The position numbers were made by a program, and so were the translations under genes. Shown in pieces: positions 1,483 through 38,966 of a DNA stretch of 42,780 nt. The DNA is from Spirochaetia bacterium (GTDB taxonomy: Bacteria > Spirochaetota > Spirochaetia > B11-G9). The first letter of the stretch is position 1. The number at the start of each line of letters is the position of its first letter. Below the pieces are notes generated by a model. The model worked only from the letters and a program-made list of their open reading frames with translations. It had not been told where the DNA came from and did no database searches. Location of the stretch: assembly GCA_027859095.1 (NCBI GenBank), contig JAQIBN010000035.1:1-42780 (forward strand). The letters run 5' to 3'.

Positions 1483-2391
1483 ATGAAAAATATTTTTATA
1501 GATTCAGATTGTGGTATCGATGATGCAACAGCAATAATGATTGCTCTTGCCAGTCCGGATATAAACATTGTTGGAATTAGTGCTGTTGCTGGAAATGCTG
1601 GTCTGGATCATGTTGTTAATAATATAACAGGTATACTGGCATATTTTGGGAGAGAGGATATTCCTGTTTATCAGGGAGCGAGTACGTCTTTGCTTGGGAT
1701 GCGAATTCATGCTGAAGGTGTTCATGGTTCAAATGGCCTGGGAGATGTAGAACTTCCTGAAAATTCTAAAATAGTCGAGACTTTAATGGCACCTGATGGT
1801 TTGTGTAAAGCTGCTAAAGAAAACCCTGGTTTGACCCTTGTTACACTGGGTCCTTTAACCAATATTGCTATAAGTATAAATTTATTTCCGGAACTAAAAA
1901 ATCTAATAAAAGAGATTGTTATAATGGGTGGTGCTCTTGAAAAGGGGAATATCACAAAATTTGCTGAGTTTAATTTTGCAGCAGATCCCGAATCTGTTCA
2001 GTTTGTTTTTGATGCCGGAATCCCTTTAACCATTGTGCCCTGGGATGTAGCTGTTGCAGCAATGTATACTGAAGAAGAGTTGGTTGATCTTGGGTTGAAA
2101 GAATCCAGGGCAGGTAAACTTCTTCTTGATATGCAGAAGGTTCCTCTCGATTTTCTTGAACAAGTATTTGGTTTTCGGGGTGTAGGGTTCCCTGATCCTC
2201 TGACTATGGCTTATGTTGTTGATGAATCTATTGTTTCCAGGAAAATTAAAGGGAATTTAAAGATGGAATTGAGTTTTAATACTATGAGAGGGGCATCTGT
2301 TCCCTGTGAGGGATTAGAGATGGATATTATTCTTGAGATTAAAAAAGAAAAATTTAATCCTATACTTTTAAAGATAAAGGCATTAAAATAA
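1483..2391 (+). CDS. Nucleoside hydrolase (inosine-uridine preferring family)
   Basis: 302 aa; N-terminal FIDSDCGIDDATAIMIAL Asp-rich Ca-binding motif, LVTLGPLTNIA and EFNFAADPESVQ motifs of the IUNH family. Confidence 0.92.
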   Translation: MKNIFIDSDCGIDDATAIMIALASPDINIVGISAVAGNAGLDHVVNNITGILAYFGREDIPVYQGASTSLLGMRIHAEGVHGSNGLGDVELPENSKIVETLMAPDGLCKAAKENPGLTLVTLGPLTNIAISINLFPELKNLIKEIVIMGGALEKGNITKFAEFNFAADPESVQFVFDAGIPLTIVPWDVAVAAMYTEEELVDLGLKESRAGKLLLDMQKVPLDFLEQVFGFRGVGFPDPLTMAYVVDESIVSRKIKGNLKMELSFNTMRGASVPCEGLEMDIILEIKKEKFNPILLKIKALK

Positions 2392-2420
2392 AGATTCTCA
2401 AAAAAAATGGAGGTTCTTAA

Positions 2421-3491
2421 ATGAACAAATTAGGAAAAATTCTCATTATGAGTATTGTAATTCTTATGGTTATCTCAACTATGGGAGTTTTCGCTGGTGG
2501 TGAAAAAGAAGCTGCTGGTGATGATAAGGTAAAAGTAGTTCTGTATGTAAATGGAACACTTGGAGATAAATCTTACTTTGACTCTGCTGCCCGTGGTATT
2601 GATAAGGCCGTAAAAGAGTTAGGTATTTTTGGAAAAGTTGTTGAGGGTGGATATGATCCGGCAAGATGGGAACCGGATATCCTACAGTTAGCTGAAGGTG
2701 ACTGGGATATTATTATTGCTGGTTCATGGCAGTTACAGGAATATCTTGAAAAAATAGCACCTAATCATCAGGATAAGAACTTTTTTACTTATGATACTTC
2801 TGTAACCTATGCAAATGGTGGATTGGATAATGTTTATTCTATGCTCTATAGCCAGAATGAAGCTTCATTTTTAACAGGTGCTCTTGCAGCTATGATTACT
2901 TCTTCAGATCTACCCCTTGCTAATAGCGAAAAGGTAGTAGGTTTTCTAGGTGGTATGGACATCACTGTAATTAATGATTTTAAAGTAGGTTTTGAAGAGG
3001 GTGTTGCATATATTGATCCTGATGTAAAAATACTTGTTGCATATGCTGGAGCTTTCAGTGATCCTGCAAAAGGAAAAGAGCTTACTCTTGCAATGTTTGA
3101 TCAGGGTGCAGATATAACATTTAATGTTGCCGGTGAAACAGGTTTAGGTGGTATTGATGCTGCAAAAGACAGATCCTTATATACTCTTGGTGTAGATTCA
3201 GACCAGTATCTTCTTTTTGCAGAAACTGATCCTAAAAAAGCATCTTTTATTGTATCTTCCATGATGAAGAATGTTGACTTTACTATTTTTAGAGCTATTG
3301 AAAAGCATATAGCTGGTACTCTTAAATATGGTGAAGCAGAAGTATTGGGAATAGAGAAAGGTGGTGTAGGCCTTGCTGATAACGAAAACTATAAGAAACT
3401 TGTACCTTCATCTATGAGAGATAAGATAGACGAAATTTCTAAAATGATTGTTAGTGGTGAAATTAAGGTTGGAACTGCTTTCGGTCAGTAA
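2421..3491 (+). CDS. BMP-family ABC transporter substrate-binding protein (copy 1)
   Basis: 356 aa; signal peptide ending VFAGGEKEAA; BMP/PnrA-like layout; followed in operon by nucleoside-type ABC ATPase and two permeases. Confidence 0.88.
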   Translation: MNKLGKILIMSIVILMVISTMGVFAGGEKEAAGDDKVKVVLYVNGTLGDKSYFDSAARGIDKAVKELGIFGKVVEGGYDPARWEPDILQLAEGDWDIIIAGSWQLQEYLEKIAPNHQDKNFFTYDTSVTYANGGLDNVYSMLYSQNEASFLTGALAAMITSSDLPLANSEKVVGFLGGMDITVINDFKVGFEEGVAYIDPDVKILVAYAGAFSDPAKGKELTLAMFDQGADITFNVAGETGLGGIDAAKDRSLYTLGVDSDQYLLFAETDPKKASFIVSSMMKNVDFTIFRAIEKHIAGTLKYGEAEVLGIEKGGVGLADNENYKKLVPSSMRDKIDEISKMIVSGEIKVGTAFGQ

Positions 3492-3508
3492 ACTGTATTT
3501 TATTACTT

Positions 3509-3535
3509 GGCCATAATTTCTCATGGCCTTCTTTT
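3509..3535 (+). terminator. Stem-loop with T-rich tail downstream of binding protein copy 1
   Basis: GGCCAT-aatttctc-ATGGCC followed by TTCTTTT. Confidence 0.6.
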
Positions 3536-3539
3536 CTAA

Positions 3540-3571
3540 TATGTAAGGGTTGATAAATCGGCCCTTACATA
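3540..3571. repeat. Perfect 10-bp inverted repeat TATGTAAGGG...CCCTTACATA
   Basis: TATGTAAGGG (3540-3549), 12-nt loop, CCCTTACATA (3562-3571). Confidence 0.75.
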
Positions 3572-3620
3572 GATTTATATAGTAATACTATTTTCTCTAT
3601 GTTTAAAAAGGATTTATTCT

Positions 3621-4769
3621 ATGAAACACTACCCCGACTGGAACACCACAACAGCTGAAGAATCAAAACAATGGTTTGTGGATAAATTTTGTTCTCCGAA
3701 TAATGCACCAATATCTCCCAGGGACAGGGTTGTAAAAACTCTGAAAAATGAAGCTCCTGACAGAGTCCCTTTTGACTTTTGGGGTGTTCCTGAAACATGG
3801 GATTCTTTAAAGTCCTTTTTAAAAATAGATGATAACAATGAGCTTATGGAGACTCTTGGCGTCGATTGCAGAGTTATTACACCCAATTATATTGGCCCTG
3901 AGCCTGAAGTTTTGGATGATGGCAGCTTTTATAATATTTGGGGTTCAGTTAGAAAAATAGTAAAAAATGGAAGTTCCAGTTATGAAGAGTATGCTGCATA
4001 TCCTCTGGCAGATTTTCAGACACCTTCAGAAGTGGAGCAATGGGATAAATGGCCGAAAAGTTCAATGTGGGATTGGGATTCCTTTATTACAAAAGTTGAA
4101 AAAGCCAATAATAAAGCTCCTTATCATATTAGATACGATATTGGTGGTATATTTGAATCTGCCTGGGGGCTATATGGTCTGGATAAATTCTTAATAGGTT
4201 TTTATGAAAATCCTGATCTGGTTTGTTCAATGATGGAATGTTATACGGACATTTTTATAAGTAATTTTCGTTCATTAATGAGCAAAGCAGAGCATTTGGT
4301 TGATATGGTTTATACATACGATGATGTTGCAACTCAGGATAGTCTTATGATTTCGCCGGATATGTGGCGTCAGTATATTCTTCCTTTTCATCAAAAACTT
4401 AATAAAGTTGTAAGGGAATATGACGTGAAGCTGATGTATCATTCCTGTGGAGCTGTTCGTCCTCTCATCCCTGCATTTATAGAAGAGCTGGATATTGATG
4501 TTTTAAATCCTCTTCAACCCAGGGCGAAAGGGATGGATATGGCTTTTATAAAAAATACCTATGGTGATAGATTGAGCTTTCATGGTGGTGTTGATCTTCA
4601 AAAAACACTTCCTTTTGGAAGTGTGGAAGATGTAAAGGATGAAGTTACAAATCTCTGTCACACTCTGGGAAAAGATGGTGGCTATATCTGTACTTCGGCA
4701 CATTATATTCAGGGAGATGTCCCTGTACGTAATATCCTTGCTCTCTATGGTCAGGACAGAATGTTTTAA
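3621..4769 (+). CDS. Uroporphyrinogen decarboxylase (URO-D) superfamily protein, MtaA/CmuA-like putative Zn-dependent methyltransferase
   Basis: 382 aa; RDRVVKTLKNEAPDRVPFDFWG start, MYHSCGAVRPLIPAFIEELDIDVLNPLQPRAKGMD and GGYICTSAHYIQGDVPVRNI blocks; H-x-C...C pattern (His274, Cys276, Cys357). Confidence 0.82.
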   Translation: MKHYPDWNTTTAEESKQWFVDKFCSPNNAPISPRDRVVKTLKNEAPDRVPFDFWGVPETWDSLKSFLKIDDNNELMETLGVDCRVITPNYIGPEPEVLDDGSFYNIWGSVRKIVKNGSSSYEEYAAYPLADFQTPSEVEQWDKWPKSSMWDWDSFITKVEKANNKAPYHIRYDIGGIFESAWGLYGLDKFLIGFYENPDLVCSMMECYTDIFISNFRSLMSKAEHLVDMVYTYDDVATQDSLMISPDMWRQYILPFHQKLNKVVREYDVKLMYHSCGAVRPLIPAFIEELDIDVLNPLQPRAKGMDMAFIKNTYGDRLSFHGGVDLQKTLPFGSVEDVKDEVTNLCHTLGKDGGYICTSAHYIQGDVPVRNILALYGQDRMF

Positions 4770-4849
4770 AAGAAGTAAATAATTCTATACTTAATTTTGT
4801 AAACAGATTAGAATAAACTGTCTAAATATATTTTTATGGAGGTTCTTAA

Positions 4850-5920
4850 ATGAACAAGTTTAAAAGAGTTCTTATTTTAAGTGTTATAACACTTATGGTT
4901 CTTTCAACCATGAGCGTATTCGCTGGTGGTGATAAAGAAGCTGCTGACGAAAGTAAAGTAAAGGTTGTTCTCTATGTAAATGGAACACTTGGTGACAAAT
5001 CTTTTTTTGATTCTGCGGCACGTGGTATAGACCAGGCTGTAAAAGAGTTAGGTATTGTTGGAAAAGTTGTTGAAGGTGGATATGATCCTGCCAGATGGGA
5101 ACCGGACATTCTTCAGCTTGCTGAAGGCGATTGGGACATTGTTATAATTGGTACATGGCAGTTACAGGAATATCTTGAAAAAATAGCTCCGAATCACCCG
5201 GAGAAAAAGTTTTTTACCTATGATACAACTGCAAACTATGAAAATGGCAATTTGGGAAATGTTTATTCAATTCTTTACAGCCAGAATGAAGCTTCTTTCT
5301 TGGCAGGAGCTCTTGCAGCAATGATCACTACTTCAGATCTTCCTCAGGCTAATTCTGATAAGGTTATTGGTTTTCTTGGAGGTATGGATATACCTGTAAT
5401 CAATGACTTTAAAGTTGGTTTTGAAGAAGGAGCAGCTTATATAGATCCTGCAATAAAAGTACTTGTTACTTATGCTGGTGCATTCAGTGATCCTGCAAAG
5501 GGAAAGGAACTTTCTTTAGCTATGTTTGATCAAGGTGCAGATATTTCATTCAATGTTGCTGGTGAAACAGGACTTGGTGGTATTGATGCTGCAAAAGAAA
5601 AAGGTAAATATACTCTGGGTGTAGATTCAGATCAGTACCTTCTTTTTGCTGATACTGATGCTGAAAAAGCTGCAAATATTGTAACTTCAATGATGAAGAA
5701 CGTTGACTTTTCAATTTATAGAGCTATTGAAATGCATATTGCGGGTACTCTTAAATATGGAGAAGCGGAAATTCTTGATATTGAAAAAGGTGGTGTAGGC
5801 CTTGCTGATAACGAAAATTATCAGAAAGTTACTACAGCAGAGATGAGAGCCGAAATTGAAGAAATTGCCAGGAAAATTACAAGTGGTGAAATCAAAGTTG
5901 GAACTGCATTCGGTCAATAA
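4850..5920 (+). CDS. BMP-family ABC transporter substrate-binding protein (copy 2)
   Basis: 356 aa, aligns without gaps to the 2421..3491 product at roughly 80% identity by eye; same leader ATGGAGGTTCTTAAATGAACAA. Confidence 0.88.
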   Translation: MNKFKRVLILSVITLMVLSTMSVFAGGDKEAADESKVKVVLYVNGTLGDKSFFDSAARGIDQAVKELGIVGKVVEGGYDPARWEPDILQLAEGDWDIVIIGTWQLQEYLEKIAPNHPEKKFFTYDTTANYENGNLGNVYSILYSQNEASFLAGALAAMITTSDLPQANSDKVIGFLGGMDIPVINDFKVGFEEGAAYIDPAIKVLVTYAGAFSDPAKGKELSLAMFDQGADISFNVAGETGLGGIDAAKEKGKYTLGVDSDQYLLFADTDAEKAANIVTSMMKNVDFSIYRAIEMHIAGTLKYGEAEILDIEKGGVGLADNENYQKVTTAEMRAEIEEIARKITSGEIKVGTAFGQ

Positions 5921-5940
5921 ATAAATCAATTTTTATATTT

Positions 5941-5968
5941 GTAGGGGCACGGGTTCTCGTGTTCCTAC
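5941..5968. repeat. Stem-loop GTAGGGGCACG...CGTGTTCCTAC between binding protein copy 2 and the ATPase
   Basis: 11-pair stem including two G-U pairs, 6-nt loop. Confidence 0.6.
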
Positions 5969-6007
5969 GATTATACGTTTTAATATCATGTAAAATTCGA
6001 GGAACGA

Positions 6008-7555
6008 ATGGAAAATATTCTTCAGGTAAAGAACATCACCATGGTTTATCCTACTGGTGTTATAGCTAACAAAGATGTAAGTATGGATGTTAAAAAAAAT
6101 AGTATCCATGCAATTGTTGGAGAGAATGGAGCCGGAAAATCTACCCTCATGAATGTTATATTTGGCAAGATTCACCCTCAGGAAGGTGAGGTTCTTTATA
6201 AGGGTGAAAAAGTGAGTTTTAAGAATCCAAATTATGCCATAAAAGCAGGTATTGGTATGGTTCATCAGCATTTAATGCTGGCTCCAGATTTGACAGTAGC
6301 AGAAAATATGATTCTTGGAATTGAACCCAAAAAAGGTAAAATATTTCTTGATACTGTTAATGCTTTGGAAATTACCAGAGAAGTTTCAAAAAAATATGGG
6401 TTGGATGTTCCTGTCGATAAAAAAATAAAAGATCTTCCTATAGGGGTTCGTCAAAGAGTTGAAATTTTGAAAGCTCTTTTTAGAAATGCAGAACTGCTTA
6501 TTTTGGATGAACCTACTTCAGTACTCACACCCCAGGAAACAGAGATTTTATTTGAAACGCTTATAAACTTAAAGGAAAGTGGAAAAACAATTCTTTTTAT
6601 ATCCCACAAACTCAGTGAGGTTAAACGGCTTGCAGATACTGTCACTGTTATGCGTGATACCAGAGTAATAACTACAAGAGATGCCTCTGATCTTACTGAA
6701 GAAAAAATTGCCCATCTTATGGTTGGAAGAGATATTAATTCTGGCCGTATTGGTGAACCTGAAAATCCAGGGAATATAAGACTTGCTGTAAAAGATCTTT
6801 CCTATGTTGATGATGAAAATGTTCAGATTCTTAAAGATATTAGTTTTGATGTTCGGGCAGGAGAAATTCTTGGTATTGCCGGTGTTGAGGGGAATGGACA
6901 ATCTGAACTTATAAGTATAATAACAGGGCTTCTGAAGCCAGCAGATGGTTCTGTTTCTGTTGATGATAATAATATTATAGGTTTATCACCCCGCCAGATT
7001 CGGGAGCTTAAGGTTTCTCATATTCCGGAAGACAGAATGGAGAATGGAGTTGCTGATATGGCATCTCTTGAAGAAAATTTTATAGTTGACAGGTATTATA
7101 AATCAGAATTTTCTAAAAATGGTAAAATAAACTGGAAATATATAAAGGACTATAGTGTAGATCTTATTAAAAGATTTAATATTCTAACTCAGTCCTCTAA
7201 AACAGCTGCAGGTGCTTTAAGTGGCGGAAATATTCAGAAAGTTGTAGTTGCCAGAGAGTTATCATCTAATCCTGAGCTAATAATTGCTGCTCAACCAACC
7301 AGGGGGGTTGATATTGGTTCTGAAGAACTAATTCATGATCTGTTGAAGAAAGCCAGGGATGATGGTAAAGCTGTTTTTTTAATCTCAGCTGATCTAGATG
7401 AAATCTTGAAACTATCAACCCGGATTATTGTAATATACGATGGACATATAACCAAACAATTTACTGATTGTTCAAATATATCAGGAATGGATCTCGGCCC
7501 TTATATGCTGGGTGTTAAGATGGAGGAGGGCGCAAGTGGAAAAATTCATTCTTAA
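6008..7555 (+). CDS. Nucleoside-type ABC transporter ATP-binding protein (two ATPase domains)
   Basis: 515 aa; Walker A GENGAGKSTLMN, LLILDEPTSVLTP Walker B, GMVHQHLMLAPDLTVAEN, second half LSGGNIQKVVVAREL...QPTRGVDIGS. Confidence 0.95.
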   Translation: MENILQVKNITMVYPTGVIANKDVSMDVKKNSIHAIVGENGAGKSTLMNVIFGKIHPQEGEVLYKGEKVSFKNPNYAIKAGIGMVHQHLMLAPDLTVAENMILGIEPKKGKIFLDTVNALEITREVSKKYGLDVPVDKKIKDLPIGVRQRVEILKALFRNAELLILDEPTSVLTPQETEILFETLINLKESGKTILFISHKLSEVKRLADTVTVMRDTRVITTRDASDLTEEKIAHLMVGRDINSGRIGEPENPGNIRLAVKDLSYVDDENVQILKDISFDVRAGEILGIAGVEGNGQSELISIITGLLKPADGSVSVDDNNIIGLSPRQIRELKVSHIPEDRMENGVADMASLEENFIVDRYYKSEFSKNGKINWKYIKDYSVDLIKRFNILTQSSKTAAGALSGGNIQKVVVARELSSNPELIIAAQPTRGVDIGSEELIHDLLKKARDDGKAVFLISADLDEILKLSTRIIVIYDGHITKQFTDCSNISGMDLGPYMLGVKMEEGASGKIHS

Positions 7556-8615
7556 ATATTTTACTCTTATAAGAACAATAATTGCGATTCTTGTTGGAAT
7601 GATAATAAGTGTTGTACTTATCTACCTAATTAGTGAAATGCCGGCTTACTCTATTAAGCAGTTTTTTTTAGGGCCTGTACTATCTAAAGGAAGATTTGCA
7701 AATGTAATAGAGAATGCTTCTCCTATGATTTTCTGCGGTGTTGCCATTGCCATTGCTTTTCAGGCTAAGCAGTTTAATATTGGCGCGGAAGGAGCTCTTT
7801 TTATAAGTGCTGCTGTAGGAACTGCATTTGCAGTTTCTACAGGAATGCCGACAGTATTACATGTAATAATGGTTTTAGTTGTTGCTGGAGCCACCGGAGC
7901 AATCTGGGGTTTTATTCCTGGTATCTTAAAAGCTAAATGGGGTGCCAGTGAACTTGTTGCCTCATTGATGATGAACTATATAGCATATTATGGAGGACTA
8001 TATCTAATAAATTCCCATTTCAGGGATAAAGATGCAGGGTTCCTTGTTTCTATACGATTACCTGAAACGGCCTGGCTTCCTCAATTTATGCCTGGGACAC
8101 GACTTCATTTGGGTATTTTGTTAGCAGTAATATTTGCATTCCTTGGATACTATTTTCTTTATCATACTACTTCCGGGTATGAAATTCGAACTACTGGGAA
8201 TAATCAGAAGTTTGCAAAGTTCGGTGGTATGAATATTGTTAAAGTTATTGTTCTTGCTCAGGTTTTAAGTGGAATGCTTGCTGGTCTTGGTGGTATGACT
8301 GAAGTAATGGGAATACATAGAAGGTTTAACTGGCAGATGAGTCCGGGATATGGATGGGATGGGGTAATTGTAGCTATAATTGGCCGAAATCATCCATTAC
8401 TTATAATTTTTGCTGCTTTTTTTCTATCGTATATGCGAGTGGGAGGGCAGATTCTTAATCTTATGGCGGACGTTCCATCTGAACTTGTTCTAGTTATTCA
8501 GTCCGTAATTATTATTCTAATTACTGCAGAAGCTTTTCTTTCGACCTGGAAAAATAAAATAACCATTAAAGAAGCAGAAAGAGTGGAGGTGGCAAATGAG
8601 TCCGTTACTCAGTAG
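7536..8615 (+). CDS. Nucleoside ABC transporter permease
   Basis: Hydrophobic BPD_transp_2-type protein (FNIGAEGALFISA, LVASLMMNYIAYY). ORF track starts at GTG 7512, but GTG 7536 follows GGAGGAGGG, so I prefer 7536. Confidence 0.9.
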   Translation: MEKFILKYFTLIRTIIAILVGMIISVVLIYLISEMPAYSIKQFFLGPVLSKGRFANVIENASPMIFCGVAIAIAFQAKQFNIGAEGALFISAAVGTAFAVSTGMPTVLHVIMVLVVAGATGAIWGFIPGILKAKWGASELVASLMMNYIAYYGGLYLINSHFRDKDAGFLVSIRLPETAWLPQFMPGTRLHLGILLAVIFAFLGYYFLYHTTSGYEIRTTGNNQKFAKFGGMNIVKVIVLAQVLSGMLAGLGGMTEVMGIHRRFNWQMSPGYGWDGVIVAIIGRNHPLLIIFAAFFLSYMRVGGQILNLMADVPSELVLVIQSVIIILITAEAFLSTWKNKITIKEAERVEVANESVTQ

Positions 8616-9591
8616 TATTTTTTCAACAGGTTTTGCATTCGCTATTCTAAGGGTAATGACCCCTCTCTTATTTCCTGCTTTAGGTGTTGCAGTTTCTGAA
8701 CTGGCGGGTTCTATAAATATTTCCCTGGAAGGTATTATGCTTATGGCGGCTTTTTTTGGCGTTATAGTAAGTGCTTTTACCGGTAGTCTTTTTCTGGCCT
8801 TAATTGCTGGGATGGCCGCAGGTGTAATGATGGGAGCATTACTTGCTTATTTCCATTTAAAAATGAAAGCTGATATTATAATGGGTGCTATCGCTCTAAA
8901 TATGTTTGCAATGGGAATGACTATATTTCTTCTTTACATCTTTACCGGAGATAAAGGAAGTACCAGTTCCCTGCAGAGTCTTGTATTCCCAAGTATAGAA
9001 ATCCCTCTTTTGAAATCTATTCCAATACTGGGAGAAATTTTTAGTGGTCATAACATATTAACCTATGTAGCTTTACTTGCTGTTCCATTTTTCTATGTAC
9101 TTATGTTTAAAACTCCTCTTGGTCTACGAATAAGGGCCGTTGGGCAAAATCCTCATGCAGCTGAATCCGTTGGTATTAATGTCGATAAAATTAAACTCTA
9201 TGCATTGATGCTGTCAGGTTTTTTCGGTTCATTAGGAGGCCTTTATCTTTCTATGGGATATGTATCCTGGTTCTCCAGAGACATGACTGCCGGTCGTGGA
9301 TTCATCGCTATTGCAGCTGCAACTTTAGGTGGTAATATGCCTTTAGGTGTTCTTCTCTCATCGTTGCTTTTTGGATTTGTTAACTCAATCGCAATATACA
9401 TAGCATCTTTAAATGTACCTTCAGAACTTATTCAGATGATACCTTATCTTGTAACACTCATAGCTCTTGCTGTTTTTGCCATGCGGGCTCAAAGGATAAA
9501 AAATAGGGTTGGAGAAATTCAGGAACATTTTGATGAAGATGCTGTGAAGGCTGTAGTAAAGGATGTTCTGAAAACCGGGGGAGAATCGTGA
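8596..9591 (+). CDS. Nucleoside ABC transporter permease
   Basis: 331 aa, INISLEGIMLMAAFFG, GQNPHAAESVGINV, TAGRGFIAIAAATLGG motifs. Confidence 0.92.
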   Translation: MSPLLSSIFSTGFAFAILRVMTPLLFPALGVAVSELAGSINISLEGIMLMAAFFGVIVSAFTGSLFLALIAGMAAGVMMGALLAYFHLKMKADIIMGAIALNMFAMGMTIFLLYIFTGDKGSTSSLQSLVFPSIEIPLLKSIPILGEIFSGHNILTYVALLAVPFFYVLMFKTPLGLRIRAVGQNPHAAESVGINVDKIKLYALMLSGFFGSLGGLYLSMGYVSWFSRDMTAGRGFIAIAAATLGGNMPLGVLLSSLLFGFVNSIAIYIASLNVPSELIQMIPYLVTLIALAVFAMRAQRIKNRVGEIQEHFDEDAVKAVVKDVLKTGGES

Positions 9592-10526
9592 CCAGGGTTA
9601 TAATAGACTGTGATCCCGGCCATGATGACATGATGGCCATTATGCTGGCTTCTGCTTCTGATAGTTTAGATCTTTTAGGTGTAACAACAGTAGCCGGCAA
9701 TCAAACTGGTGATAAAACATTTGAGAATGCTTTACGTGTTCTTACACTTATTAATGAAGAAATTCCTGTTGCAAGAGGTTCTGATAAGCCTCTCTTGAGA
9801 GAGCTGGTGACAGCTCCTGAATTCCATGGACAGAGCGGTCTTGATGGTGCTGAACTTCCTGAGCCGGGTATTAAGGCTTTGGATATTGATGCTGTAGATT
9901 TTATTATAAATATGCTGGAAGAGAGCCTGGAAAAAATTGTTCTTATTCCTACAGGTCCACTTACAAATATTGCAATGGTTCTCCTTAAAAAACCGGAGAT
10001 AAAGCATAAGATTGAACGGATTGTCCTTATGGGTGGGGGAATGCATGATTCAAATGTTACCCCTGTAGCAGAATTTAATATTTATGTAGATCCGGAAGCT
10101 GCTAAAGTAGTTTTTGAATCCGGTGTTCCCATTACTATGGTTGGTTTGGATGTTACAAACAGGGCCCTTATGTCTTTTGAAGAGATTGATGGTATTGTTG
10201 CTGAAAATGGTGTTATTTCATCAAAAGTTGGCCCTTTATTAAAGTTCTTTGCAAATGCAAATAAAAAAATATTCGGTTTGAATGGAGCTCCTATTCACGA
10301 TGCTCTTGCAGTTGCAGCTGTAATTGACCCTTCTGTTGTAGAAACAAAGTTTCTCAATGTTCAGATTGAAGTTTCCAGTGAGCTTACCCGTGGTGCAACT
10401 GTTGTTGATATTTATGGTGCAACAGGAAAAGCTCCCAATGTAGATGTCGCTCTGGGAGTGGATACTCCTAAATTTGTTGGATTTATGATCGATTCCATAA
10501 AGAAACTGGACAAAAATTTTGTATGA
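9588..10526 (+). CDS. Nucleoside hydrolase (second copy in operon)
   Basis: 312 aa; VIIDCDPGHDDMMAIMLA, PTGPLTNIAMVL, EFNIYVDPEAAK; overlaps permease stop by 4 bp. Confidence 0.93.
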   Translation: MTRVIIDCDPGHDDMMAIMLASASDSLDLLGVTTVAGNQTGDKTFENALRVLTLINEEIPVARGSDKPLLRELVTAPEFHGQSGLDGAELPEPGIKALDIDAVDFIINMLEESLEKIVLIPTGPLTNIAMVLLKKPEIKHKIERIVLMGGGMHDSNVTPVAEFNIYVDPEAAKVVFESGVPITMVGLDVTNRALMSFEEIDGIVAENGVISSKVGPLLKFFANANKKIFGLNGAPIHDALAVAAVIDPSVVETKFLNVQIEVSSELTRGATVVDIYGATGKAPNVDVALGVDTPKFVGFMIDSIKKLDKNFV

Positions 10527-11824
10527 TAATTAAAAATATCTCAATTCTATCTTTTAAAAAAATGAATATTCAGAAAAATATGAATATTCTAATTGATCAG
10601 GGCAGGATTAAAGATATTTCTTCTGTTTTAACAGATTCTGAATTATCCAATGAAGTTGTTATTGATGGTACAGGAAAGTATATCATTCCAGGGCTTGTAA
10701 ATGCTCATGCTCATACTGCCATGACTCTCTTAAGAGGTGTAGCAGAAGATGTTACTGTAGATGACTGGTTTAACAAGCATGTCTGGATTTATGAGCAGAG
10801 TCTTACGCCTGATGATGTTTATGTTGGGACCCTCCTTGGTGCTGCAGAAATGCTTCTTTCCGGTGTTACAGCAGTTGCAGATCACTATTTTGCTATGGAT
10901 AGAGCATTTGATGCATATGTAGAATCAGGAATGCGTGCGAATATTTCATGGGCTGTATTTGGAACAGGACCAGATAATGAAACACAGTTTGAAACAGCAA
11001 TGAAGTTTACTAAAGATTATAGTGGTAAAAATTCAAGAATATCTATTTCTTTAGGTCCTCATTCTCCCTATATCTGTCCTGAAGATTTTCTAAAAAAAGT
11101 TTCGACAGTTTCTTCCAAACTGGAATTGCCTATGCATATTCATGTTTCTGAGACAGAAGCCCAGGTATTAGATTCTCTAAAAAAAACAGGACTGACACCT
11201 ATTCAGGTTCTCGATAAAACAGGAGTGCTAAGAAAGGGAACAATACTTGCCCATGCTTTCTGGGCAACTGATGACGATCTTCGGCTTATAAAGGAAAGAG
11301 GATCCGGGATTGCCCACTGTGCAAAGAGTTATATGAAGTTTGGTGATATCAATGATTTACTTCCCAGAGCTATTAAGGCTGGTGTAAAAATTGCTTATGG
11401 AAGTGATGGACTTGCTTCAAATAATACAGCAGATATTTTTGAAGTAGCCAGAGATGCGGCACTCCTTGCAAAATGTGCAAGCCGGAATTCAGAAGATGCA
11501 AAAATTTCGGAATTGCTTCCTCTTCTTAATAATGGTGATGTAATAGGGCTAGATGACTATGGTGAGATAAAAGAAGGAGCTCTAGCTGATCTGGTAATAA
11601 TTGACCCTTCAACTCCAAATATGATGCCTGGTAATAATATCTTTGCAGATATACTTTATTCTCTAAACAACAGGAATATTCATTCTGTCATTGTTGATGG
11701 TAAGCTCGTTGTTGAAAATGGAAAACTATTAACTGTCAATGTGGAAGATTTGAAGGCTGAAGCAACTCAGATCGCAAAAAGATTACTAGCAACAGTTTCA
11801 AAAAAACCAATGCAGAACTATTAA
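10523..11824 (+). CDS. Amidohydrolase, MTA/SAH deaminase (MtaD)-like
   Basis: 433 aa; GLVNAHAHTAMTLLRG, MHIHVSETEAQV, HCAKSYMKFGD, AYGSDGLASNNTADIFE motifs; 4-bp overlap with preceding gene. Confidence 0.85.
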   Translation: MIIKNISILSFKKMNIQKNMNILIDQGRIKDISSVLTDSELSNEVVIDGTGKYIIPGLVNAHAHTAMTLLRGVAEDVTVDDWFNKHVWIYEQSLTPDDVYVGTLLGAAEMLLSGVTAVADHYFAMDRAFDAYVESGMRANISWAVFGTGPDNETQFETAMKFTKDYSGKNSRISISLGPHSPYICPEDFLKKVSTVSSKLELPMHIHVSETEAQVLDSLKKTGLTPIQVLDKTGVLRKGTILAHAFWATDDDLRLIKERGSGIAHCAKSYMKFGDINDLLPRAIKAGVKIAYGSDGLASNNTADIFEVARDAALLAKCASRNSEDAKISELLPLLNNGDVIGLDDYGEIKEGALADLVIIDPSTPNMMPGNNIFADILYSLNNRNIHSVIVDGKLVVENGKLLTVNVEDLKAEATQIAKRLLATVSKKPMQNY

Positions 11825-30356: not shown

Positions 30357-30574
30357 TAATTGCCTCCATTTGTTTTAAAATTACTAAAAAAATGTAGTAA
30401 ATGTCAATATATGTTAATAATTGTATAAATAAAGTGAGTTGTTTTTTTCTATATTAATAACATCATAAATATTACAAAAATGTAATTTATCAGTAAGGTT
30501 GTTGTAATTCATCTGATGTAGTATATCTTTCATATTAAAAACAGCAACGTAAGCCTGGTCGCCAACAAGTTGGC

Positions 30575-30654
30575 CTGGTCGGGACTTCGTCCCTGCTCGG
30601 CCATGCAACCGTGGCTGGTCGGGACTTCGTCCCTGCTCGGCCATGCAACCGTGG
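30575..30654. repeat. Two perfect tandem 40-bp GC-rich repeats (plus degenerate partial third) upstream of moxR
   Basis: CTGGTCGGGACTTCGTCCCTGCTCGGCCATGCAACCGTGG at 30575-30614 and 30615-30654; followed by CTGCTCGGCTATGCTATCGTAGG. Confidence 0.9.
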
Positions 30655-30686
30655 CTGCTCGGCTATGCTATCGTAGGAGATTTTAT

Positions 30687-31697
30687 ATGAATGAAGAAGT
30701 ATCTGGTGCTGTGCTTGATGTTGCAGGTACCGGAAAAAAAGTAGACCAGGTATCTGGTTTATTAGCCAGTCTAAGATTGGAAATCCAGAAAATTATTGTT
30801 GGTCAGGACTATCTGATAGATCGTTTAATTATAGGACTTCTATGTAATAATCATGTACTAATTGAAGGAGTTCCAGGGTTGGCAAAAACATTGTCAATTA
30901 CAACCTTGGCAAAAACTCTGAATTTAGACTTTCACAGAATCCAGTTCACTCCCGATTTACTTCCTGCAGATTTAATTGGAACCCTAATTTATAATCCTAA
31001 AACAGGAGAATTTACTCCAAAAAAAGGACCTGTTTTTTCAAATATTATTCTTGCAGATGAAATAAACCGTGCTCCGGCTAAGGTTCAGAGTGCTTTACTG
31101 GAAGCTATGCAGGAACGTCAGGTTACCATTGGCGATGAAACTCATGCTCTGGACACTCCCTTTATGGTGCTTGCTACTCAAAATCCTATTGAGCAGGGTG
31201 GAACTTATCCATTACCTGAAGCACAAGTGGACAGATTTATGCTTAAGTTAAAAATAACCTATCCCAGTAAAGCAGATGAGCTTCTTATATTAAAACGTAT
31301 GGCTAAATCTAATCCTAATATGGAAGTTCTTCCAATCATTGGTTCAAAAGAAATACTAATGTTAAGGGATCTGACTGATGAGATCTACATGGATGAGAAA
31401 ATAGAGGAATATATTGTAAATATTATAGACGCCACCAGGCATCCTGAAGATTATGGCCTGGATTTGGGAAACTATATTCAGTATGGAGCTTCTCCAAGGG
31501 CTACAATTTATCTAACCATGGCTTCAAAAGCCTATGCACTTCTTCAAAGCCGGGGATATGTTACGCCACAGGATGTGAAATCCATAGGAATGGATGTTCT
31601 CAGGCACAGGGTTATAATTAGTTACGAAGCCGAGGCAGATGAGAAAACCCCAGAGGATATTCTCCAGTCAATTTTTAGTGTGGTGGAAGTACCATGA
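30687..31697 (+). CDS. moxR: MoxR family AAA ATPase
   Basis: IEGVPGLAKT Walker A, ILADEINRAPAKVQSALLEAMQERQVT. ATG 30687 follows TAGGAGA; the ORF-track start at 30570 reads through the tandem repeats. Confidence 0.93.
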   Translation: MNEEVSGAVLDVAGTGKKVDQVSGLLASLRLEIQKIIVGQDYLIDRLIIGLLCNNHVLIEGVPGLAKTLSITTLAKTLNLDFHRIQFTPDLLPADLIGTLIYNPKTGEFTPKKGPVFSNIILADEINRAPAKVQSALLEAMQERQVTIGDETHALDTPFMVLATQNPIEQGGTYPLPEAQVDRFMLKLKITYPSKADELLILKRMAKSNPNMEVLPIIGSKEILMLRDLTDEIYMDEKIEEYIVNIIDATRHPEDYGLDLGNYIQYGASPRATIYLTMASKAYALLQSRGYVTPQDVKSIGMDVLRHRVIISYEAEADEKTPEDILQSIFSVVEVP

Positions 31698-32575
31698 TTT
31701 CCCGGGATCTGGCAAAAAAGATCCGCTATATTCAGATCACCACCAGTAGAGCTGCAAACAGCACCTTTGCAGGAGAGTATGAGAGTGTTTTCAAAGGACA
31801 GGGGATTGAGTTCGATGAAGTACGGGAATATCAGGCTGGAGATGATACTAGAGCAATAGACTGGAATGTAACAGCAAGAACAGGTGTTCCCTTTATTAAA
31901 CGCTTTGTTGAAGAACGGGAACTCATTGTTATGTTTCTGGTGGACATGAGTGGATCCGGGGTATTTGGGAGTATTGAGAAAACAAAAAATGGAATTGCTG
32001 CAGAAATTTGCTCTTTACTTGCATTTTCAGCTATTAAAAATAACGATAAGATAGGACTTATAGTATTTACAGATACTGTTGAGTTTTATCTTCCACCGGA
32101 AAAGGGAACCAGGCATGTTTTAAGACTAATTGAAGAAATTCTTAGTTTTAATCCCAAAGGGGTAAAAACAGATATTGGTGCAGCTTTGGATTATTTGGGT
32201 AGGGTAAGTAATAAAAAAACGGTAGCCTTTTTAATATCTGATTATCTTGATACCCACTATGAACAAAAACTTAGAGTAATGAATAAGCGCCATGATCTAA
32301 TTGCTGTTACAATTAGTGATCCCAGAGAGGTCGATTTGCCAAAGATAGGTATGGTTAGACTTCTTGATGCAGAAACAGGAGAAAGTATTGTCATTGATAC
32401 TAATAGTGAAAAGGTACGAAGCTGGTACCGTGTAAAATCTTTGGAACGAAAAGATAAATTAAAAAGAGTTTTTTTTACATCCGGAATAGATCAGATTGAT
32501 ATTCGTACAGATAAAGATTATTTAAAAAGTATAACTACATTTTTTCTGAACAGAGAAAGGCGGCTTAAAAGGTGA
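31694..32575 (+). CDS. DUF58 domain protein
   Basis: 293 aa; FDEVREYQAGDDTRAIDWNVTART, LVDMSGSG MIDAS-like motif; follows moxR. Confidence 0.92.
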   Translation: MISRDLAKKIRYIQITTSRAANSTFAGEYESVFKGQGIEFDEVREYQAGDDTRAIDWNVTARTGVPFIKRFVEERELIVMFLVDMSGSGVFGSIEKTKNGIAAEICSLLAFSAIKNNDKIGLIVFTDTVEFYLPPEKGTRHVLRLIEEILSFNPKGVKTDIGAALDYLGRVSNKKTVAFLISDYLDTHYEQKLRVMNKRHDLIAVTISDPREVDLPKIGMVRLLDAETGESIVIDTNSEKVRSWYRVKSLERKDKLKRVFFTSGIDQIDIRTDKDYLKSITTFFLNRERRLKR

Positions 32576-33540
32576 TTAAGCTGTTAAAGAAAATTTTTCT
32601 AATATTAATATTACTATTGATCATTATTTCCTGTAAAAAAGAACATCAAAGTTTTCAAGCAGATGACTATGAATATACAAATAGCTTTTCTAAAGGACCA
32701 ATTTCTTTAGAGATGATGTTAGATAAGATAGAAATTAATACTTCAGAGAATATTCAAATAATCCTTAAAGGAAAAGCTTCTGATGGGTGGAAACCCTCAT
32801 TTCCTGATATGACTGAGACTCTGGATAAATTTACCTTAGTAAGTGTTTCTGAAACAGTTCCCCGTATAGAAGATGATGGGTCAATCGGAATTAATAGAAC
32901 TATTGTTTTGAAACCATTTTTATCTGGAGAATATGAAATTCCCAGGTTATCTCTTGATTATAGTAATGAACATGAAAATAAAGGTGTTCTTTTAAGTAGT
33001 CCAGTTTCTATTAATGTTACCAGCCTGCTACCGGAAAATACTGATAACCTTCAGTTAAAGGAAATTATGGAACCTGATACTTATAATTATTGGAAACTGG
33101 TTCTTTATATTTCCATAGCAGTGATTATTGTTGGAGGGGTTTTTCTGGTATTATTTTCTATTCGTAAACGGAAAAGAGGGAAGCTTATTCTGGGAATACC
33201 GCCTTCTGAAGAAGCTTTTACTAAACTAACTCTTCTTCTTGATAAAAAACTTCCAGAGGAAGGGAAATACAAAGAGTTTTATTTTCAGTTAAATTTGATA
33301 GTTAGAATATATATAGAAAGGCAATTTGCAATAAGAGCTCCGGAACAGACGACTGAAGAGTTTCTTCAGGATCTGGCTATTTCCAATGAAATATCAGATG
33401 AATTTAAACAGGTTTTGAAGGATTTTTTAATACATTCGGATCTGGTTAAGTTTGCTCTTCTTAAACCAGGAGAAGAAGAACTTACAGGCTCCGTGGAGTC
33501 ATGTAAGAACTTTATAAAGGTAACAGGAGAAATGTCATGA
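32572..33540 (+). CDS. Membrane/lipoprotein of Bat operon (BatD-like N-terminus, DUF4381-like C-terminus)
   Basis: 322 aa; lipobox-like LLIIISC, single TM YISIAVIIVGGVFLVLF, C-terminal YIERQFAIRAPEQTTEEFLQDL. Confidence 0.7.
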   Translation: MIKLLKKIFLILILLLIIISCKKEHQSFQADDYEYTNSFSKGPISLEMMLDKIEINTSENIQIILKGKASDGWKPSFPDMTETLDKFTLVSVSETVPRIEDDGSIGINRTIVLKPFLSGEYEIPRLSLDYSNEHENKGVLLSSPVSINVTSLLPENTDNLQLKEIMEPDTYNYWKLVLYISIAVIIVGGVFLVLFSIRKRKRGKLILGIPPSEEAFTKLTLLLDKKLPEEGKYKEFYFQLNLIVRIYIERQFAIRAPEQTTEEFLQDLAISNEISDEFKQVLKDFLIHSDLVKFALLKPGEEELTGSVESCKNFIKVTGEMS

Positions 33541-34532
33541 TGTTTCAAAATCCACTGGCTTTTCTGTTTCTTTTTGGAATTCCCCTTGCTGTTTTAATGC
33601 GCCACAGGAAAACTAAAAGAGACCAGTCAGGAATACCTTTTCCTTCTGTAGCTATTGCAGCTGGTATACCCAGATCATTTCGTCAGAGACTTAGTTTTAT
33701 TAAACCTTTATTACTGATATTTGCAATGGTTCTTTTAGTTATAGCACTTGCCCGGCCGAGGTATGGGATGGAAGAAGTTAAGACTGTAAATAAAGGAATT
33801 GCTATAGAGATGGTTGTTGACCATTCTGGTAGTATGGGTGCGGGTATTCGTTATGAAGGGAAAAATATTACCAGACTTGATGCCGTTAAACTTGTATTTA
33901 CAAATTTTGTTATGGGTAATGGTAAGGAATTAGAAGGAAGATCAAATGATTTAGTAGGTCTTGTAAGTTTTGCACGATATGCTGATACTGTTTATCCTTT
34001 ATCACTTTCTCATACTACTATAACTGGGTTTTTAAAAAATGTTTCTTTGGTCACTAATAAAAATGAAGATGGAACAGCTATTGGTGATGCGATTGCTTTA
34101 GGTTCTGCAAGACTAAAAACAGTTGAGACCGAATTGGAAAAACAAGGGAATGATGTCGGTTATATAATAAAAAGTAAAATTATTATTCTTTTAACTGATG
34201 GTCAGAATAACTGGGGCAAATTAACACCTCTTGAAGCTGCAGAACTTGCCAGGGATTGGGGTATAAAAATATATACAATAGGTATTGGGGGCGAAGATAT
34301 TAATACTTTGGCTCAGGTTTCAAATATAACCGGAGGTAAGCATTTTACTGCAGATAATGTTAGTGGTTTGACAAAAGTCTATGAGGAAATAGACTCTCTT
34401 GAAAAAAGTGAAATTGAATCAGTAAAATATATGGATTATAAAGAAGCATTTCTACCTTTTGTTATAGCAGCTCTTTTTTCAATTTCATTATATATTATTT
34501 TATCTGCAACACTGTTAAGGAGGATACCTTAG
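33537..34532 (+). CDS. batA: VWA domain membrane protein BatA
   Basis: 331 aa; MVVDHSGSM MIDAS motif, N- and C-terminal TMs, operon position. Confidence 0.88.
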   Translation: MMFQNPLAFLFLFGIPLAVLMRHRKTKRDQSGIPFPSVAIAAGIPRSFRQRLSFIKPLLLIFAMVLLVIALARPRYGMEEVKTVNKGIAIEMVVDHSGSMGAGIRYEGKNITRLDAVKLVFTNFVMGNGKELEGRSNDLVGLVSFARYADTVYPLSLSHTTITGFLKNVSLVTNKNEDGTAIGDAIALGSARLKTVETELEKQGNDVGYIIKSKIIILLTDGQNNWGKLTPLEAAELARDWGIKIYTIGIGGEDINTLAQVSNITGGKHFTADNVSGLTKVYEEIDSLEKSEIESVKYMDYKEAFLPFVIAALFSISLYIILSATLLRRIP

Positions 34533-34534
34533 CT

Positions 34535-35545
34535 ATGATGTTTAGGTTTATTTCATTGACAAATATTAATTATCTATGGCTCGTTCCATTATTAGTTTTA
34601 GTATATGTATATGATCATTATAAGAGAAAAGCAGCTCTTTTAAATTTTATACATGATAATTATCTTCAAAAAATATCTTCTCTTGTAAATATAAAAAGAC
34701 GAAGGACAGAGCAGATACTTTTAATCTTATCTATAATGTTTATTGTTCTGGCAATGGCCAGACCGGGATGGAATCCACAGGCAGTAACTGTTGAACGAAA
34801 GGGAAGGGATGTTGTTTTTATCATAGATATATCCAGAAGTATGCTTGCAGAAGATATAAAACCAAACAGGCTTGAGCGTGCAAAAACAGAGATTATTGAT
34901 ACGGTCTCCAGGCTTTCAGGAAGCAGAGTTGCTCTTCTTGAATTTGCAGGAACAGCCGTAGTTAAATCACCTCTTACTACAGATTATGCTTTTTTTAGAA
35001 CAGCTACTGAAAGTCTTTCTGTTAATGATGTTTCCAGAGGTGGCACCATGCTTGGGGATGCACTGCGAGAGGCCATGACCCAGATTTTAGACCCTAAGGA
35101 AAAGAATTTTAAGGATATAATTCTTATAACAGATGGTGAAGATCATGAGAGTTTTCCTGTGGAAGCTGCAAAAGCAGCAGGAGAACAGGGCGTTCGATTA
35201 ATAATAATTGGTCTTGGAGATGAAAATCAGGGGACCAGAATCCCTATAATAGATACTGAAGGTAAGAAAACATTTCTTACTTATAATGGAGAGGAAGTCT
35301 GGACAAAACTGGATGCCGGGACACTTAGAGAGATGGCTGCAGTTAGCCCTGGAGGAAAGTATTTGAATGTTGGAACAGGTGCTTTCGATCTTGGAGAAAT
35401 TTATCTCCGGTTAATAGCAAGTGCAGAAAAAAAAGACCTTCAGGGTGATACTATTATGAAATATCAGGAGTTATTTCAATATTTTATTTTTCTATCTTTT
35501 ATAATTCTACTCTTTGGATATTTTAAACAGGAGGGAAATTCCTGA
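34535..35545 (+). CDS. batB: VWA domain membrane protein BatB
   Basis: 336 aa; IDISRSMLAEDIKPNRLERAK motif, TMs. Confidence 0.9.
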   Translation: MMFRFISLTNINYLWLVPLLVLVYVYDHYKRKAALLNFIHDNYLQKISSLVNIKRRRTEQILLILSIMFIVLAMARPGWNPQAVTVERKGRDVVFIIDISRSMLAEDIKPNRLERAKTEIIDTVSRLSGSRVALLEFAGTAVVKSPLTTDYAFFRTATESLSVNDVSRGGTMLGDALREAMTQILDPKEKNFKDIILITDGEDHESFPVEAAKAAGEQGVRLIIIGLGDENQGTRIPIIDTEGKKTFLTYNGEEVWTKLDAGTLREMAAVSPGGKYLNVGTGAFDLGEIYLRLIASAEKKDLQGDTIMKYQELFQYFIFLSFIILLFGYFKQEGNS

Positions 35546-35546
35546 T

Positions 35547-36299
35547 ATGATAAAGAAGTTTATTTTAGCATATTTGTTATCAATTTTATTATTGATCCTG
35601 ACTCCTTCATATATATTTTCTATGGGATTTAAAGAGAATGAATTAAATGGAAATAATCTTTACAAAGAAGATGATTTTGAGGGAGCATCTTTAGAATATA
35701 CTGAAGGTCTTACTAAGAAAGCTGATTATAAACTCTACTATAACAGGGGCGTTTCTTATTATAAATTAGGTCAGTACGATAAGTCATTTTCAGATTTTGA
35801 AAACTCTGCTACCTATGCAAATTCTGAAGGTGATCAGATAAAAGCTGTTTATAATGCAGGTAACAGCAATTATATGATGGCAGAAACTGTAAAAAATGAA
35901 AATCCTGGTCAGGCACTGGAGCTATTTGGCAAAGCTGTTAATCATTATGAAAGAGTTTTGGAACTGGATACTGATAACGATGATGCTTCCTACAATCTTG
36001 AATTGGCAAGGTTGAGACTGGACGAAATAAAACAACAGCAAAGTGAAGATCAGCAATCTGAGGATCAACCGGACGGAGATCAACAATCTGACAATGGTTC
36101 TGAAGATGGTCAGCAGGATGGTGAACAGCAGAATTCTGATCAGCAACAGCAAGATCAACAGATAGAAAGTTCTGAGTCATCATACCTCTCTGAAGAAATC
36201 TCACCAAAAGATATTCTAAATGAAGAGGCCAGAAGGCAGGACGCAATACAGGCTCTAATAACAAGTGGTTCCGGAGAGTTAGTGGATAAGGACTGGTAG
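35547..36299 (+). CDS. batC: TPR protein BatC
   Basis: TPR-like repeats (YYNRGVSYYKLGQYDKSFSDFE) and Q/D/E-rich C-terminal region; start MIKKFILAY preferred to track start 35514. Confidence 0.85.
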   Translation: MIKKFILAYLLSILLLILTPSYIFSMGFKENELNGNNLYKEDDFEGASLEYTEGLTKKADYKLYYNRGVSYYKLGQYDKSFSDFENSATYANSEGDQIKAVYNAGNSNYMMAETVKNENPGQALELFGKAVNHYERVLELDTDNDDASYNLELARLRLDEIKQQQSEDQQSEDQPDGDQQSDNGSEDGQQDGEQQNSDQQQQDQQIESSESSYLSEEISPKDILNEEARRQDAIQALITSGSGELVDKDW

Positions 36300-36300
36300 A

Positions 36301-38145: not shown

Positions 38146-38966
38146 TGAAGAAACCTGGACTTATAATATTTTATTGTTTTATTTCGATGCAGTTGTTTTC
38201 CCTGGATCAAAATCTTCAGATTGATTTGTATAAACAGGGTAATAATTTTTTCCAAGAGGCTGTGGGCAATCAAATATCCAATCCCAAAGCAGCCGAATCC
38301 CTTTATGAAGACTCCTTGCTTCGATTTTTACAGTTAACTGAAGATATTCAGAATGGTAAACTATATTACAATATTGGAAATATTTATTATAATCTAGGTG
38401 ATATGGGAAGAGCGATTCTTAATTACAGAAAGGCTGCTTTACTTATACCTGGAGACAGGAATTTAAAGGAGAATCTTGAATCTGTCAGAGAACAGAGGGT
38501 AGATACTTTAAGCGAAAATGAGAGTGTAAGAATTCTGGAAACTGTATTTTTTATTCATTATAATCTGTCTTCTTCTTTTAAATCTATTCTTTTTGGTATA
38601 GCTCTTGGTCTTACATGGATAAGTGCAGCAGTTCTTCTACTAAAGAAAAAAATCAATACCTCTTTATTCCAGGCCTTTTTTACAAGTACAATAGTTTTTG
38701 CCGTTCTGACATTATTTTTTCTGGGATCTGTACTTATAGATACCATGGAATTAAAATATCATCCTGGTGGAGTAATTACAACAGATGCAATCATTGCAAG
38801 AAAGGGTGATGGTCTGAGTTATTCTCCCTCTTTTGAGGATCCTCTTCATTCGGGATTAGAATTTACTCTTATTAATGAACGTTCGGGATGGTATTACATA
38901 GAATTATCTGATAAGTCACGAACCTGGATACCGGATAATGCAGCTTCTCTTGTAGCGCTGGAATAG
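38145..38966 (+). CDS. batE: BatE: TPR + TM + SH3-like C-terminus
   Basis: 273 aa; LYYNIGNIYYNLGDMGRAILNYRKAALLIPGD, two TMs, C-terminal GLEFTLINERSGWYYIELSDKSRTWIPDNAA. Confidence 0.85.
   Translation: MKKPGLIIFYCFISMQLFSLDQNLQIDLYKQGNNFFQEAVGNQISNPKAAESLYEDSLLRFLQLTEDIQNGKLYYNIGNIYYNLGDMGRAILNYRKAALLIPGDRNLKENLESVREQRVDTLSENESVRILETVFFIHYNLSSSFKSILFGIALGLTWISAAVLLLKKKINTSLFQAFFTSTIVFAVLTLFFLGSVLIDTMELKYHPGGVITTDAIIARKGDGLSYSPSFEDPLHSGLEFTLINERSGWYYIELSDKSRTWIPDNAASLVALE

Follow-up and report, generated by a model that had tools for sequence, protein, structure and literature searches.

A UroD-superfamily protein encoded among spirochaetal nucleoside genes, a predicted corrinoid-dependent methyltransferase for methylated nucleosides

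Nucleoside gene run and its UroD-superfamily member

The analysed DNA (the window) comprises 42,780 nucleotides from a Spirochaetia bacterium and forms a single contig in a genome of 4.2 Mb and approximately 90% completeness. A run of genes on the same strand, spanning positions 1483-11824, encodes the following proteins:

1483-2391, + strand: nucleoside hydrolase NHa (IU_nuc_hydro) with the motif DSDCGIDD (PF01156, 255.6 bits)
2421-3491, + strand: BMP/PnrA-like nucleoside-binding protein, copy 1 (PF02608, 188 bits)
3621-4769, + strand: UroD-superfamily protein, predicted corrinoid-dependent methyltransferase I (MT1) for methylated nucleosides (PF01208, AlphaFold2 model, fold and conservation)
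4850-5920, + strand: BMP/PnrA-like nucleoside-binding protein, copy 2 (PF02608, 196 bits)
6008-7555, + strand: duplicated ATP-binding protein of an ABC importer (PF00005, two stretches)
7512-8615, + strand: ABC importer permease 1 (PF02653)
8596-9591, + strand: ABC importer permease 2 (PF02653)
9588-10526, + strand: RihA-like nucleoside hydrolase NHb (PF01156, 344.5 bits; PRK10443 RihA, 359.6 bits, under the cut-off of 433)
10523-11824, + strand: amidohydrolase of the MTA/SAH/adenosine-deaminase-like group (PF01979, 191 bits; best NCBIfam models PRK06038 and PRK08393, both under cut-off)

The gene at 3621-4769 is an ATG-initiated open reading frame of 382 amino acids, confirmed as real; orthologues with 82-85% identity occupy the same place in two further genomes of the genus, which sets it far beyond chance. 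It is the sole URO-D gene found in the window by Pfam scans and lies, as the initial annotation had described, between duplicated nucleoside-binding protein genes, both of which match PF02608 and which are 80% identical to one another. The gap separating BMP copy 1 from the UroD gene contains a 14-pair stem-loop (3540-3571) with a weak T-rich tail after it, which may set the ratio of binding protein to enzyme. An Rfam scan of the window yielded no match. The NHa-type motif DxDCGxDD is found in UroD-linked nucleoside hydrolases of the window (1483-2391) and of two other loci (L123:8204-9139 and L209:6323-7273) and could signal specificity for modified nucleosides, while NHb, unlike these, has DxDPGxDD. 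A second BMP-type import system (M20 peptidase-like protein, BMP, ABC protein and two permeases) is encoded on the same contig at 19862-26627, and a Bat/aerotolerance-type cluster (MoxR ATPase, DUF58, VWA proteins, BatD and TPR protein) at 30570-38966.

The sole family assigned to the UroD protein by Pfam is PF01208 (URO-D; 64.2 bits, E 1.4e-17, gathering score 23.9), and Foldseek matches of its AlphaFold2 model (39 sequences, pLDDT 95.2, pTM 0.92) to URO-D structures likewise place it in this superfamily. The top match in the PDB was MtaA (4ay7; E 3e-14, TM 0.64/0.71), followed by HemE structures (E 1e-12 or weaker) and MetE (E 2e-6), an order that answers the structural comparison proposed with the initial annotation. 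A PDB sequence search with the protein alone retrieved nothing, whereas a profile derived from its alignment retrieved MtaA (E 2e-10), with HemE at just E 0.24. The reading as a true uroporphyrinogen decarboxylase, for which the common superfamily and fold might speak, is refuted by the sequence and is exceedingly improbable. The protein gave no match at E<=1e-3 to the NCBIfam hemE equivalog TIGR01464 (cut-off 303), with which E. coli HemE scored 455.6 bits, and none of the scanned URO-D proteins of its own genome are hemE-grade, the top score being 41 bits against 303. In a maximum-likelihood tree of 93 rows with long deep branches, the joins of which are not relied upon, it falls within a 13-row Spirochaetota/Chloroflexota clade (support 100/98) that is separate from E. 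coli HemE, from MtaA and from the UroD proteins of the corrinoid hubs discussed below. As judged from sequence, the protein is thus a member of the URO-D superfamily other than HemE, as the initial annotation had held; its observation that heme genes are missing nearby also stands among the Pfam-scanned window proteins, a set that leaves out several short ORFs.

Gene neighbourhoods of the orthologues and of a ribose-linked sister clade

Orthologues with adjoining nucleoside genes are encoded in three phyla, Spirochaetota, Chloroflexota and Bacillota, and the neighbours include BMP importers, a nucleoside hydrolase or phosphorylase, DeoB/DeoC and PsuK/PsuG. Importer or cleavage genes for nucleosides occur within 6 kb in 11 of the 15 clade members with enough flanking sequence, whereas the corresponding count for more remote UroD relatives is none of 26 (Fisher p 4e-7), a comparison in which related genomes are not independent. 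In the genus-mates G005 and G004 the order is M20-NH-BMP-UroD, while in the spirochaete genus g28 a DeoC-DeoB-UroD arrangement adjoins a BMP-type importer. Several Chloroflexota share the order BMP-ABC-perm-perm-UroD; in one more the UroD gene adjoins DeoB, and in two others it is found with AMH, NH and PfkB. Among the Bacillota, Peptococcaceae CEB3 encodes PNP-BMP-ABC-perm-perm-UroD-PsuK(PfkB)-PsuG, the last matching PF04227 with 448 bits, and UroD-PNP, UroD-NH-ECF and UroD-PNP-NH-ECF arrangements occur in Faecousia, Sporanaerobium and another Clostridia genome, respectively, with the ECF transporters named by eye. Two loci (L102 and L112) have no nucleoside neighbours by the labels used. The role tied to imported nucleosides that the initial annotation had suggested for this methyltransferase-like protein is therefore matched by a link conserved across three phyla. 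A scan with the single protein found no relatives in the genome contigs and an alignment-based scan did; by the latter, the named records that come closest are metagenome assemblies of spirochaetes. In one g28 genome (L044; G052:C29) just a C-terminal part of the orthologue remains, containing a stop codon, and the gene appears to be a pseudogene; DeoB, DeoC and the importer are still present.

A sister clade of the UroD protein is linked to ribose genes, with its genes placed at the end of ribose operons and RbsD adjoining the UroD gene in 14 of 32 loci. Pleomorphomonas sp. JP5 and P. koreensis DSM 23070 encode a LacI-type regulator, a transporter, RbsB, RbsK, RbsD and UroD, and the JP5 locus continues with a second UroD protein, a corrinoid protein (motif DLHDIGKN), an AraC regulator, a DeoC-like aldolase, the corrinoid reductive activase RACE and DUF1638. 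Ribose genes and corrinoid/UroD genes are joined in these two strains (L140:3857-17310 and L144), and the locus resembles a full demethylation operon for a methylated ribose.

Candidate corrinoid partner and predicted metal site

Although there is no corrinoid protein in the window, as the initial annotation noted, the remainder of the same genome encodes a candidate partner, and the notion that none exists can be discarded. Contig C48 carries genes for a free-standing corrinoid protein, a pterin-binding methyltransferase, a PocR/AraC regulator, EtfA, EtfB and MetF, with EtfAB and MetF named by sequence recognition rather than family search, and RACE is encoded on contig C12. The genome therefore holds the gene set of a corrinoid-dependent MT1 system: corrinoid protein, RACE and pterin-dependent acceptor methyltransferase (MT2). 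The RACE gene occurs at identical coordinates in contigs C12 and C13, probably strain variants kept separate in the assembly. Genus-mate G005, which has the matching UroD orthologue (85% identity), has the C48-type hub as well, interrupted there by the end of a contig; the impression from a Pfam scan that it lacks a corrinoid protein was rejected, the gene being truncated there. In the g28 genomes the hub has the order RACE-PocR-corrinoid-aldose-1-epimerase, in which RACE was confirmed and the epimerase named by eye; the latter adjoins the corrinoid protein gene in four of these spirochaetes (L086, L088, L089 and L090), which hints at sugar substrates.

Across 148 relatives, a UroD-like gene and RACE occur together in 46 genomes, the UroD-like gene only in seven, RACE only in 14 and neither in 81 (odds ratio 38, p 2e-18), counts that take in all homologues of the window protein and partly reflect shared ancestry. 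Seven of 53 genomes with a homologue accordingly show no RACE. At genus level the corresponding numbers are 29, 2, 11 and 37 (p 3e-10). RACE is present in 23 of 24 carrier genomes and in one of 14 controls. Outside the spirochaetes, each of the 15 genomes with an orthologue contains PF02607 matches, with corrinoid ORFs of free-standing size in every case, and 14 of the 15 encode RACE. None of 15 window-clade orthologues has a corrinoid or RACE gene within 6 kb, so that the partnership would have to operate in trans, whereas a corrinoid protein is encoded within this distance at six of the 32 loci of the sister clade. The six other UroD paralogues of the genome could be the partners of the hub instead.

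The MT1 role expected of the protein, in which a methyl group passes from substrate to a corrinoid protein with RACE and a pterin-dependent MT2, is that of the UroD-family O-demethylases and dehalogenases MtvB, OdmB, VdmB, MtoB and CdmB, which act on aryl methyl ethers or haloalkanes and not on nucleosides. Only CdmB among these was returned by the structure search, with a negligible profile match (E 0.33). The Mlp proteins of type 1 mlp gene clusters are likewise MtaA-like UroD proteins with a corrinoid protein and RACE, but they mostly have His-Cys-Cys ligands, are linked to sulphur and selenium metabolism and are co-encoded with their own corrinoid protein (PMC10418091).

The initial annotation had read His274, Cys276 and Cys357 as a Zn-thiolate triad of the type found in methylcobamide:thiol methyltransferases. 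All three residues are present at these positions, and His274 and Cys276, which align with the H-x-C of MtaA, do not vary among the 16 nucleoside-clade orthologues. Cys357 aligns four residues ahead of the third Cys of MtaA and is kept in ten of the 16 orthologues but replaced by Leu in the other six, namely all six Bacillota, which rules it out as the third Zn ligand. The column of the third MtaA Cys is instead occupied by His361, invariant in all 16. In the DSSP assignment of the model, His274 closes strand 270-274, Cys357 is found within strand 355-357 and His361 comes after that strand. D234/D235 and E179 are likewise conserved. The replacement of Cys357 and the invariance of His361 argue for a site of the type H-C-H, with H-D-H in the sister clade, rather than H-C-C: the residue matching position 276 is Asp in 31 of 32 ribose-linked sister-clade proteins and in 25 of 29 more distant UroD relatives. 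The predicted metal site is hence His274-Cys276-His361, with metal and geometry suggested by sequence conservation. Some UroD-family MT1s are zinc enzymes and some are without zinc (PMC13222342).

In the UroD family, His-Cys-Cys marks S-methyltransferases, whereas one or both Cys are replaced in O-methyltransferases and O-demethylases (PMC10418091). By this rule, His361 in the third position makes the protein look unlike a methylcobamide:thiol methyltransferase, and the Zn-thiolate triad of the initial annotation is not supported; the retained Cys276 is less typical for an O-demethylase than the Asp of the sister clade. The methylcobamide:coenzyme M methyltransferases MtaA and MtbA (4ay7, TIGR01463) share the URO-D TIM-barrel and the position of the H-x-C with the window protein. 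They differ from it in having a third Cys in place of His361 and in being encoded with methanogenesis genes rather than in a nucleoside operon, and the window protein, at 61.3 bits, is under the cut-off of 235 for the MtaA/CmuA family TIGR01463.

Proposed nucleoside demethylation and its alternatives

The UroD protein is probably an anaerobic corrinoid-dependent MT1 that demethylates imported methylated nucleosides. In such a pathway, the BMP proteins and ABC importer, recognisable by family, would take up the nucleoside, with the reservation that the importer may bring in merely ordinary nucleosides. The nucleoside would be bound in the UroD-like TIM barrel, where a metal held by the conserved His274, Cys276 and His361 would polarise the methylated oxygen, and Co(I) of the C48 corrinoid protein would then accept the methyl group. 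The pterin-binding methyltransferase of C48 would move the methyl group to a folate, from which MetF with EtfAB could oxidise it, while the RACE of C12 would re-reduce the corrinoid. The demethylated nucleoside would be cleaved by the nucleoside hydrolases, assigned by family, and the ribose would enter the pentose pathway.

The assignment of 2'-O-methyl nucleosides as substrate is tentative and is drawn from context and chemistry. It is favoured because the ribose-linked sister clade suggests a methyl group on the sugar, because the metal site differs from the S-type and because ordinary nucleoside hydrolases, which hold the 2'- and 3'-hydroxyls via calcium, should be blocked by a 2'-O-methyl group. 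Special hydrolases accepting 2'-O-methyl nucleosides exist (PMC12709175, PMC6278475), which makes the order of demethylation and cleavage uncertain. Among the known aerobic counterparts, a 2'-O-methyluridine cluster combines a nucleoside hydrolase with a DERA-like aldolase, and a ribokinase in related genomes (PMC6278475). The clusters of the hydrolases RK9NH and LbNH, with a nucleoside hydrolase and DeoC-like aldolase, resemble the loci described here, but there the base is removed while the ribose keeps its methyl group, and a UroD gene has not been reported (PMC6278475, PMC12709175). The net reaction proposed here, from 2'-O-methyl nucleoside to nucleoside, is that of FJS/PHYHD1, which are unrelated 2-oxoglutarate/Fe dioxygenases that require O2 and release formaldehyde (PMC12709175).

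The same corrinoid MT1 mechanism might act on a methyl group borne by sulphur or by the base, as in 5'-methylthioadenosine (MTA) or in 7-methylguanosine and other cationic N-methyl nucleosides. Cys276 is retained throughout the nucleoside clade, and the MTA/SAH/adenosine-deaminase-like amidohydrolase that ends the gene run, homologues of which also flank the UroD gene in loci L212 and L213, keeps MTA or a methylated purine as an alternative substrate. This reading is nevertheless unlikely, given that UroD S-methyltransferases have His-Cys-Cys (PMC10418091) and His361 occupies the third position here; neither do the PsuG, DeoB and ribose-operon contexts indicate sulphur. It is also improbable that the protein functions without a corrinoid, as a UroD-fold decarboxylase, lyase or isomerase, for example, acting on a modified nucleoside in nucleoside or pentose catabolism. 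On that premise, corrinoid genes co-occur only as both mark anaerobic fermenters of sugars and methyl compounds; the superfamily does contain non-methyltransferases, the genome set has common ancestry and no window-clade member has an adjoining corrinoid gene, but at several loci of the close sister clade the UroD gene has physical linkage to those for a corrinoid protein and RACE, nearly all carrier genomes encode RACE and the nearest fold is that of MtaA. The nearest solved structure being a thiol methyltransferase, and the H-x-C being retained, the protein might also stand on the acceptor side, passing a methyl group from the corrinoid protein to a thiol as MtaA does, with the nucleoside neighbours serving another step. 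This is quite improbable, since every orthologue has His361 in place of the third Cys and the sister clade has Asp in place of the second, and the hub already has a pterin-dependent MT2.

Set beside these alternatives, the full explanation, an MT1 of an anaerobic corrinoid system whose substrates are imported nucleosides bearing a methyl group, most likely 2'-O-methyl ribonucleosides released in RNA turnover, falls only slightly short of an even prospect. More speculative is a wider scheme in which the protein would be an O2-independent 2'-O-methyl-nucleoside demethylase and one corrinoid hub would serve several UroD methyltransferases across nucleoside, ribose and other sugar operons. To our knowledge, no characterised UroD-family enzyme acts on a nucleoside or aliphatic sugar ether, and the literature searched contained no paper on corrinoid- or UroD-linked demethylation of sugars or nucleosides, nor on a link between UroD and ribose or nucleosides. 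RNA in sediments, digesters and guts contains many methylated nucleosides. Their breakdown has been described as largely unexplored, and the demethylases reported there require oxygen (PMC12709175). As a UroD-type corrinoid methyltransferase with a predicted new substrate class, the protein would represent an anaerobic counterpart to the FJS/PHYHD1 reaction, opening to O2-free bacteria a reaction known until now solely from enzymes that use oxygen, and UroD-family enzymes would for the first time be assigned to sugar methyl ethers. The clade, which spans three or more phyla and has members among gut Bacillota, would channel the methyl group into C1 metabolism, and a specific function would be assigned to part of the many genes labelled merely 'uroporphyrinogen decarboxylase family'. 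The presence of the sister clade in P. koreensis DSM 23070, which is named in its record as a culture-collection strain, makes the prediction testable.

The six further UroD proteins of the genome (G000) are encoded on contigs C6, C99, C101, C209, C297 and C188 (L049-L054). Sugar ABC importers are encoded beside both the C6 and the C101 gene, together with apparent catabolic genes of the rhamnose/fucose type on C6 and a sulfatase-like gene on C101; several sugar demethylases may possibly share one corrinoid hub in this genome. A corrinoid protein is encoded together with a 449-aa MtaA-like UroD protein and a CobW-like GTPase in G031:C1, G029:C14, G015:C33 and Faecousia C111 (L091, L097, L098 and L207). 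This protein, which has a thioredoxin-like C-terminus in L091, represents a separate UroD type and is possibly an acceptor-side enzyme.
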